The notes below the pieces were generated by a model that made no database searches, was not told where the DNA came from, and was given only the letters and a program-made list of their open reading frames with translations. Shown here in pieces: positions 1 to 4,181 of a stretch of DNA of 36,985 nucleotides. The stretch is from Clostridiaceae bacterium. GTDB lineage: Bacteria; Bacillota; Clostridia; DSM-8532. Location: NCBI GenBank assembly GCA_012520615.1, contig JAAYNX010000111.1, positions 1-36,985 of the forward strand, written 5' to 3'. How positions within the stretch are numbered: the first letter of the stretch is position 1; every line of letters starts with the position of its first letter. The translations under genes were made by a program, and so were the position numbers.

Positions 1-275
1 AAAGGCGCTTGTTAGAGGGTGCGTCTTAGGGGTTTATAATCCCGGAAAAGTATCGGCATAGTTGGTTATTACCGGCTATGCAGAATACCATCGATGAAAC
101 CTAGATTCTCGCACCAAAGAAAGATACGGTGAGGAAGGTTTTAGCTATACCCTTGATTAGCGCCGCTTGCTATGATAAAATGTTATAACAAACCTACACG
201 AAGTAGGTTAAAGAACGCAGACGCGTTCCGGCTTTCGAGCTATGTGCAGTAATCTGTGTTGAATGTATGCTATTG
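1..275 (+). ncRNA. 3' part of a structured RNA of unknown class
   Basis: No ORF with a ribosome-binding site covers this stretch, but it is dense in helices. GGCGCT (4-9) pairs with AGCGCC (159-164) and closes a multibranch domain. GGTGCG (18-23) pairs with CGCACC (110-115). An 11-bp hairpin with two G-U pairs lies at 56-66/71-81 around the loop TATT, extended by GTAT/ATAC (50-53/85-88). AAACCT (97-102) pairs with AGGTTT (136-141). Simple hairpins follow at 191-197/203-209, 213-218/223-228 and a UUCG loop at 231-240. A strong terminator follows directly. The 5' end is probably outside the window. I did not recognise a known class: no RNase P, tmRNA, SRP, T-box or common riboswitch core motif is visible. 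It could be a free-standing large RNA or the leader of the downstream operon. Confidence 0.6.
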
Positions 276-317
276 AAGGCATACGGTTTTTCTGAAGAAG
301 AACCGTATGCCTTTTTT
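276..317 (+). terminator. Rho-independent terminator of the structured RNA
   Basis: A perfect 13-bp stem (276-288 with 301-313) with a 12-nt loop is followed by a T-run. The left arm also contains GCATAC (279-284), which can pair with GTATGC at 265-270 in a mutually exclusive 6-bp hairpin. Conditional termination is therefore possible but not shown. Confidence 0.85.
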
Positions 318-2120: not shown

Positions 2121-2877
2121 TTCTGTGAAGGATATACTTAAAGCTGTACAAAACGGCAGCATATCCGTTGAAGATGCTGCCCTGAAGCTTAAAACCGCAC
2201 CATTTGAAGATATCCGATTTGCAAAAGTCGACCTGCACCGGGGGTTACGGCAAGGCGTTGCCGAGGTCATATACGGTGCAGGCAAAACACCGGAGCAGAT
2301 TATCGGTATCGTTGATGTAATGCGCAGAAATGAACAAAGCACCATACTCATTACAAGACTTTCTGCCGAAGCTGTAGATACAATTAAGAATCGCGTAACA
2401 TATGAACTTGATTACCATGCCGATGCAAAAATCGCCATTATAGGCACAATGCCGAAACCAGACGGCATTGGGAAGATTGTCGTTGCCACAGGAGGCACCA
2501 GCGATATTTCTGTAGCCGAGGAAGCGGCGCTTACCGCTGAGGCTCTTGGCAATGAGGTCACGCGGATTTATGACGTGGGAGTCGCAGGATTACACCGGCT
2601 GCTTGCCCATTTGGACGAAATTATGAGCGCCAGTGTTTTAATCGCTATCGCAGGAATGGAGGGGGCGCTTGCCAGCGTTATCGGGGGCCTTGCGGACTGT
2701 CCGGTTATCGCAGTGCCTACAAGCGTCGGCTACGGGGCATCCTTCGGCGGAATATCAGCGCTGCTGTCTATGCTCAATTCCTGTGCAAGCGGTGTGTCTG
2801 TGGTCAATATAGACAATGGCTTCGGAGCTGGGTATATGGCAAGCATGATTAATCATATGGAGGCAAAGGTGAAATGA
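2113..2877 (+). CDS. larB: LarB, nicotinate adenine dinucleotide carboxylase/hydrolase
   Basis: LarB carboxylates the pyridinium ring of nicotinic acid adenine dinucleotide and releases AMP, giving the first intermediate (P2CMN) of the nickel-pincer nucleotide. The 254-residue protein carries a C-terminal PurE/AIR-carboxylase-like domain. Visible landmarks are VATGGTSDISVAEEAA at about residues 120-135, GVAGLHRLL near 155, and glycine-rich AGMEGALASVIGGL and PTSVGYGASFGG, typical of the family. GGAGGGG lies four bases before ATG 2113, which makes the upstream in-frame ATG 2095 less likely. It overlaps larE at its start and larC at its end (ATGA), so the three genes form one coupled block. Confidence 0.93.
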   Translation: MNNSVKDILKAVQNGSISVEDAALKLKTAPFEDIRFAKVDLHRGLRQGVAEVIYGAGKTPEQIIGIVDVMRRNEQSTILITRLSAEAVDTIKNRVTYELDYHADAKIAIIGTMPKPDGIGKIVVATGGTSDISVAEEAALTAEALGNEVTRIYDVGVAGLHRLLAHLDEIMSASVLIAIAGMEGALASVIGGLADCPVIAVPTSVGYGASFGGISALLSMLNSCASGVSVVNIDNGFGAGYMASMINHMEAKVK

Positions 2878-4181
2878 AAACACTGTATTTTGATTGCAGC
2901 ATGGGTGCTGCGGGAGATATGCTGACAGCAGCCTTGCTGGAACTTCTGCCCGATCAGGAGGCTTTCCTTGCCGAACTGAACGGTCTAGGTATTCCGGGCG
3001 TTAAAATAAAAAAAGAAATATCTACAAAATGCGGCATCAGCGGCTCACATATCATCGTAACTGTTGGCGGCGAAGAGGAAGAAGCCGGGGGTTTACACGG
3101 GCATGAACACCATCACGGCCATAAACATGAACATGAGCGCGAACACATCCACGAACACATCCATGAACATGAGCGCGAACACACCCACGAACACATCCAT
3201 GACCATGAACATGAGCACACGCAGAATGCTATGTATGCGCATCATCATAGCGGTATGCATGAAATTGAGCATATAATAAAGAAACTGAAACTTTCGCCCA
3301 AGGTAAAAGCGGATGTTTTGGCAGTCTATGCACTTATCGCCGAGGCGGAAAGCCATGCCCATGGCGTTCCCGTTACCGATATCCACTTCCATGAAGTCGG
3401 CACAATGGATGCCATTGCTGACATTACGGCTGTCTGTCTGCTTATGGATAAGATCGCTCCGCAGCAGGTCATCGTTTCACCTGTTCATGTGGGAAGCGGT
3501 CATATACGTTGCGCTCACGGCATTCTTCCGATTCCCGCACCGGCCACAGCATATATACTGCGCGATGTACCTATTTATAGCGGTGGAATAAAAGGAGAGC
3601 TCTGCACGCCCACCGGCGCTGCATTGCTGAAGTATTTTGCAACATCCTTCGGTGATATGCCTGCTATAAAGACAAAAAATATCGGCTATGGCATGGGCAA
3701 GAAAGATTTTGAAGCGGCAAACTGTGTTCGGGTTTTCCTTGGTGAAACAGCAGATAATTGTGACCGGATACTTGAGCTCAACTGCAATGTAGACGATATG
3801 ACCGCAGAGGAAATCAGCTTTGCCATGGACAGGCTCTTTGACGCCGGGGCACTTGATGTATTTACCGTGCATGTTGGCATGAAAAAATCCCGTCCGGGAA
3901 CGCTTATTTGCATACTGTGTCGTGAGCGGGATAAGGAAACTGTCCTAAGAGCTGTATTTAAGTACACTACAACTATCGGAATTCGGGAAGTCGTTTGCAA
4001 TCGATATGTGCTGGAACGCAGTATAGCGACCATACAAACACCATACGGTGAAGTGCGGCGCAAGGATTCCTTTGGATACGGTGTGAGTCGCTCCAAGTAC
4101 GAGTATGACGATCTTTCAGGAATTGCAAAGAAAAAAGGCGTCAGCATTGCGGAAGCAATTCGGCTGATCGAGGATCAGTAA
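2874..4181 (+). CDS. larC: LarC, nickel-inserting enzyme with a His-rich loop
   Basis: LarC inserts nickel into the dithiolated pincer nucleotide in a CTP-dependent reaction, completing the cofactor used by lactate racemase and other LarA-type enzymes. The 435-residue protein starts with the family signature YFDCSMGAAGDM and later has FHEVGTMDAIADI, ELCTPTGAALLKYF and ELNCNVDDMTAEEI. Residues 75-125 contain 23 histidines alternating with Glu, Asp and Arg, a likely nickel reservoir or chaperone segment. Lactobacillus plantarum makes LarC from two ORFs by programmed frameshifting; here it is one continuous frame. It is the last gene of the lar block, and no larA follows. Confidence 0.95.
   Translation: MKTLYFDCSMGAAGDMLTAALLELLPDQEAFLAELNGLGIPGVKIKKEISTKCGISGSHIIVTVGGEEEEAGGLHGHEHHHGHKHEHEREHIHEHIHEHEREHTHEHIHDHEHEHTQNAMYAHHHSGMHEIEHIIKKLKLSPKVKADVLAVYALIAEAESHAHGVPVTDIHFHEVGTMDAIADITAVCLLMDKIAPQQVIVSPVHVGSGHIRCAHGILPIPAPATAYILRDVPIYSGGIKGELCTPTGAALLKYFATSFGDMPAIKTKNIGYGMGKKDFEAANCVRVFLGETADNCDRILELNCNVDDMTAEEISFAMDRLFDAGALDVFTVHVGMKKSRPGTLICILCRERDKETVLRAVFKYTTTIGIREVVCNRYVLERSIATIQTPYGEVRRKDSFGYGVSRSKYEYDDLSGIAKKKGVSIAEAIRLIEDQ
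3129..3200 (+). repeat. Two tandem 36-bp repeats coding the LarC His-rich loop
   Basis: 3129-3164 and 3165-3200 are 36-bp direct repeats that differ at one base seen by eye (ACATCC against ACACCC). Each encodes 12 residues of an H-x-H-E type pattern. A partial third unit follows (3201 onward). Such a repeat can expand or contract by slippage, changing the number of metal-binding histidines without breaking the frame. Confidence 0.85.

Follow-up and report, generated by a model that had tools for sequence, protein, structure and literature searches.

A probable transcription-attenuation leader of nickel-pincer-nucleotide genes next to a mobile-element scar in a Clostridiaceae bacterium

The window, a stretch of 36,985 nucleotides of Clostridiaceae DNA that starts at base 1 of its contig (JAAYNX010000111.1), opens with a mobile-element scar followed by a short conserved RNA leader. 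With a probability of about three in four, this leader (positions 188-317) controls the nickel-pincer-nucleotide (NPN, 'lar') gene set by transcription attenuation: it carries an intrinsic terminator together with a conserved, mutually exclusive helix. The best reading of its role is that of an orphan riboswitch candidate in the control of NPN supply. The original prediction had described one multi-helix RNA over 1-317, of which the core at ∼188-317 stands, while the remainder resolves into an element remnant (∼12-84) and a promoter (153-181).

Left edge of the window

Positions 12-84 (no strand assigned), which lie outside the leader, represent what remains of the terminus of an element with a DUF4368-type large serine recombinase. 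In a search of 197 related genomes this segment was matched in many of them, with 83-87% identity to segments beside the recombinase C-terminus at ∼10 other loci and weaker matches of 75-82%. Among the better matches, most copies immediately adjoin the C-terminal end of the gene for a large serine recombinase with Resolvase, Recombinase, zinc-ribbon and DUF4368 domains (PF14287/PF07508/PF00239). Since no recombinase follows 12-84 in the window, the segment was classified as a remnant. The 11-bp hairpin previously counted as part of the RNA is indeed conserved, near 56-79, but belongs to the end of this element and not to the leader.

In the same 197 genomes, positions 152-320 match a single locus, L005, with 87% identity that continues through the downstream genes, and the alignment of the window with this orthologue begins only at ∼152. 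As the search divides the proposed RNA in this way, the two long-range stems proposed earlier connect unrelated pieces and were not borne out: 4-9/159-164 joins the mobile-element flank to the promoter spacer, and both arms of 18-23/110-115 lie upstream of the promoter. The junction between the element end and the promoter (85-151, no strand assigned) has no match in its own genome, the 197 relatives, phages or plasmids; the DNA similarity search against phages and plasmids gave one match, ascribed to chance. When read on the minus strand, 85-151 ends with ...WYSA* where the stop of the element's recombinase would be. A tRNA/tmRNA scan of the window found none.

A free-standing, large structured RNA over the whole of 1-317, for which ROOL, GOLLD and raiA had been named as models, would agree with the folding energy of this region, which is below that of shuffles (z -7.6 for 1-317 as a whole and -5.7 for 188-317). 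Such an RNA is nevertheless extremely improbable, as 1-187 consists of the mobile-element end and the promoter, the long-range stems are missing in the orthologue, no Rfam family (including these three) was matched, and the leader is only ∼130 nt long.

Architecture of the leader

The forward-strand promoter at 153-181 consists of TTGATT, a 17-nt spacer (159-175) and TAAAAT, with TG before the -10 hexamer, and is conserved in L005 with identical hexamers and spacing. A consensus promoter with at least 9 of 12 matching positions was found near the leader in 51 of the 66 collected leaders, its -10 usually ending 1-6 nt before the start of the covariance model. In the window, the position of the promoter places the expected transcription start near 188, and the leader as a whole was therefore assigned to 188-317 on the forward strand (covariance-model match, 186-318).

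Hairpin H1 (191-209), AACCTAC-ACGAA-GTAGGTT, pairs 191-197 with 203-209 in the predicted fold, and H2 (213-228), GAACGC-AGAC-GCGTTC, pairs 213-218 with 223-228. The latter is present in the centroid fold; a longer helix replaces it in the minimum-energy fold, but homologues back H2. The putative antiterminator H3 (265-284) is formed by GTATGC (265-270), a loop and GCATAC (279-284), and was predicted to fold in a transcript ending at 288, in which the 3' arm of the terminator is still to be made. It is followed by an intrinsic terminator (275-314) with 18 pairs, a TGAA loop and a subsequent U run, which has 279-284 in common with H3 and is the structure formed in the predicted fold of the full RNA (188-317). 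All four elements lie on the forward strand. An NGAA loop is common to H1, H2 and H3, and usually also to the terminator. The loops of H1 (ANGAA or NGAA) and H2 (NGAA or NGAC) are mostly 4-5 nt long, and those of H3 7-8 nt.

Conservation and covariation

A covariance model, R1, was built from ten leaders. It finds the leader at 42 of 80 loci with ORF1 homologues (see below), with E-values down to 1e-22, and matches 24 genomes in a sample of 391 from the class (two or three of which, including the scaffolds of G334, look spurious), most of them in gene contexts absent from model building. Two further leader genomes were found among close relatives. With the exception of the ECF-linked match, those in G334 (L125, L131-L133) were not counted, as they resemble G+C-rich terminator repeats, one of them adjoining a tRNA-like sequence; reverse-strand matches were dropped because the terminator is palindromic. 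The other 38 ORF1 loci show similar lar linkage without a recognised leader.

Alignment A3 drew on sequence alone. Substitutions on both sides were seen for 14 of its 26 pairs, and the number of such double-change cells is 43, compared to 13.8 in shuffles; these counts are inflated by the relatedness of the sequences. Overall, 91% of cells are paired, compared to 32-63% when slid. The values for H3 were 98% paired cells, a score of 0.49 versus 0.36 in shuffles, and 13 versus 3.6 double-change cells. In the sequences with a 4-nt loop, a one-column misalignment of H1 depresses its count. A count anchored on the hairpins gave several pair types at most positions, and is biased, as the hairpins were picked by pairing; in a control for this count, a four-hairpin descriptor fitted 46 of 66 leaders and 26 of 3300 dinucleotide shuffles. 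As judged from these alignments, all predicted leader helices covary and the 188-317 core is real, the mutually exclusive pairing of H3 and the terminator being conserved along with the helices. The 6-bp alternative pairing 265-270/279-284 and the terminator of the original prediction, the latter with 18 pairs in place of the 13 bp claimed, were both borne out in this way.

An unregulated, plain terminator left behind the mobile-element scar, with the downstream genes read from another promoter, would be consistent with the strength of the terminator and with a second promoter-like match at 402-430. We consider this very unlikely, because the promoter, H1, H2 and H3 are conserved with covariation in many genera, before related genes, and a plain terminator needs none of them.

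The leader family recurs in many gut and anaerobic bacteria. Its most divergent ECF-linked copies have weak scores (35-50 bits), and some are without a clear H2. Shorter or degenerate variants before ECF S genes (L181, L185, L187-L191 and L194) retain an (A)CCATGAAGGT-like core, often minus one hairpin.

Genes following the leader

The first gene after the leader in the window, ORF1 (531-941), encodes a 136-aa membrane protein, and ORF2 (954-1268), always found beside it, a 104-aa membrane protein; neither belongs to a Pfam or NCBIfam family. They are followed on the same forward strand by larE (1335-2120, start maybe at 1371; sulfur transferase, TIGR00268, 266 bits), larB (2113-2877; NF033503, 292 bits) and larC (2874-4181; nickel insertion, PF01969, 448 bits). 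Nicotinic acid adenine dinucleotide is the compound from which LarB, LarE and LarC produce NPN (PMC9283937, PMC12611868). ORF1 and ORF2 occur together in all 80 loci fetched, and 43 of these encode LarC no more than about 5 kb away; this linkage is seen with or without the leader. The pair may take part in the transport of NPN or nickel. The LarC protein of the window contains a long His/Glu-rich stretch, HEHEREHIHEHIHEHEREHTHEHIHDHEHEH, likely a nickel store.

The distance of ∼200 nt to the first ribosome-binding site, as given earlier, is right for the window, with ∼130 nt of this gap missing in L005. The missing part, 384-516, which lies after the terminator and ahead of the ORF1 ribosome-binding site, is perhaps a small inserted element, with an imperfect inverted repeat at 418-433/488-503.

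Besides the window, the leader precedes ORF1-ORF2 in G014, G099, G205, G371, G380 and G382. In independent genomes it also stands before larE-larB-larC (G084, and G346, where a CbiM-family importer gene follows), before larC alone (G009), before FecCD ABC genes and then larE-larB-larC (G308), before a methyltransferase-like gene and an ABC permease gene (G380), and before a family-5 substrate-binding gene (NikA-type, from a reading of the frame) in an operon that runs on into larE-larB (G186). In 12 genomes it is located before a gene for a ∼178-aa ECF S-component (PF12822), usually followed by one for a ∼350-aa kinase-like protein. Thus, most leaders stand before NPN or nickel genes, or before the ECF set. 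The proposal that the membrane-protein/lar genes have a conditional leader is supported by the terminator and its competing helix, and control by nickel or the pincer cofactor, offered originally as speculation, is strengthened by these gene associations.

A candidate salvage route

Among the 12 genomes with the leader before the ECF set, full-length LarC was found only in G251 (a partial weak match is present in G378), LarB above the cut-off is missing from 11, and a LarA homologue (E ≤ 1e-10) is present in 8. LarC occurs in 12 of 12 genomes in which the leader precedes other genes (the unassigned match in G077 excluded). The loss of LarC and LarB, with LarA mostly kept, suggests cofactor salvage.

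The co-occurrence of LarA, LarC and relatives of the ECF S-component was surveyed in 382 genomes of the class (E ≤ 1e-50 for LarA, E ≤ 1e-20 for ECF S). Among LarA-positive genomes, 38 of the 46 that lack LarC have an ECF S relative, compared to 17 of 53 with LarC (odds ratio 10, p 6e-7, uncorrected for phylogeny). A similar but weaker trend was seen in genomes without LarA, which shows that the ECF profile lacks specificity. The ECF S gene directly adjoins that of LarA in three genomes (G083, G202 and G242; L184, L192 and L193). Loci encoding the ECF S-component and the kinase-like protein comprise L143-L154 and L176-L195.

The model fold of the ECF S-component resembles the vitamin S-components ThiT, RibU and PanT (TM 0.6-0.7), compared to a TM of 0.38 for CbiM. 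We infer that the ECF set imports and rephosphorylates the pincer nucleoside. These observations bear on a direct nickel riboswitch, in which Ni2+ would be the ligand and the cofactor would not be sensed. NikA-type, CbiM and FecCD importers do occur in leader operons, and the NiCo riboswitch is a precedent for a nickel-sensing RNA class (PMC7266159). However, the leader is found mostly before lar genes or before an S-component that folds like vitamin S-components and not like CbiM, and a kinase-like protein would suit an organic nucleoside rather than a metal, which makes the metal an unlikely sole ligand.

Comparison with known RNA classes

No Rfam 15 family reached threshold on the window in strict and lax, whole and local scans, or at the leader of 12 other leader loci, in agreement with the lack of a match to any known class in the original prediction. 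No paper describing the leader RNA was found in the literature searched, which left subscription journals mostly outside.

The ANTAR target RNAs (EutV, NasR, AmiR) also consist of repeated hairpins with conserved loops, the last of which overlaps an intrinsic terminator. Their loops are hexanucleotides with A1 and G4 (PMC3369931), and an ANTAR target was rejected because the H1 and H2 loops are mostly 4-5 nt NGAA sequences, with no A1/G4 hexanucleotides. In addition, 14 of 25 leader genomes, the window's own among them, encode no ANTAR-domain protein. The NiCo (czcD) riboswitch, RF02683, is likewise a nickel-linked cis-regulatory RNA, which activates exporters at high metal levels (PMC7266159), whereas the leader stands before importers and cofactor synthesis genes; the RF02683 covariance model gave no match. 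Guanidine-II (mini-ykkC) has a similarly simple architecture of two near-identical stem-loops, and its Rfam model gave no match either. The loops of Guanidine-II are ACGR; the leader differs in its NGAA loops, its associated genes and its third hairpin, which overlaps the terminator. Moco-type riboswitch candidates control the synthesis of a cofactor together with the uptake of its metal; their function is alike, but the structure is unrelated (no Rfam match) and the cofactor is another one. On the basis of these comparisons the leader would constitute a new family of the transcription attenuator type, with the status of a riboswitch candidate.

DUF3842 as a possible partner of the leader

A conserved ∼135-aa Rossmann-like protein, DUF3842, is encoded upstream of the leader at L051, L031, L146 and other loci. 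Of the 25 leader genomes, 24 encode it, compared to 18 of 45 others (p 2e-6, uncorrected for relatedness), and it is found at 25 of 42 ORF1 loci with the leader compared to 2 of 38 without it. In 24 of the 25 linked ORF1 loci, the upstream DUF3842 gene ends 43-135 nt before the leader; the window's genome encodes DUF3842 unlinked to the leader. These associations, and several identical loops that would fit a protein dimer, are consistent with antitermination by a new protein in the manner of ANTAR or BglG, with DUF3842 binding the repeated NGAA hairpins and stabilising H3. On the other hand, G205 has the leader and no DUF3842, and the fold of this protein shows a weak likeness to nucleotide-binding Rossmann proteins and to no RNA-binding fold; a comparison with solved structures gave no sequence relative and only weak Rossmann matches. 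DUF3842 genes also occur close to ECF S genes that have no recognised leader (e.g., G051, G073), so the protein may be a pathway enzyme. No literature on DUF3842 was found in the papers searched, again with subscription journals mostly outside. We regard a sensor protein acting in trans as less likely than not, with DUF3842 as the foremost candidate.

Proposed mechanism

In an attenuation leader of this type, RNA polymerase would start at the promoter (153-181) and make H1, H2 and then H3. Persistence of H3 (265-270/279-284) would block the terminator, and the membrane-protein/lar genes would be read. If H3 opened, the terminator (275-314), predicted to be far more stable than H3 without a bound factor, would form and transcription would stop. 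Because H3 is the weaker helix, expression of the genes would require that something holds it in place; this could be a signal of cofactor or nickel need that acts via the repeated NGAA-loop hairpins. From the expected folding kinetics, we infer a default OFF state.

We see roughly even odds that the sensor is the RNA itself, with Ni2+, NPN or an NPN precursor as the ligand. It should be noted that the H2-H3 linker is variable, which is unusual for a compact aptamer. In a more far-reaching and tentative interpretation, against which we would place the odds, the leader may be the first known RNA sensor of NPN or its precursor, governing both cofactor synthesis (larB, larE, larC and nickel import) and salvage, the latter by an uncharacterised ECF transporter and kinase in genomes that have kept LarA and lost the synthesis genes.

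Neither Rfam nor the searched papers yielded any RNA control of nickel-pincer cofactor metabolism. The leader flags genes of the pathway, including the family-less membrane-protein pair and the salvage-like ECF S-component and kinase. If true, such salvage would explain how the cofactor is supplied to LarA in genomes without LarB and LarC.
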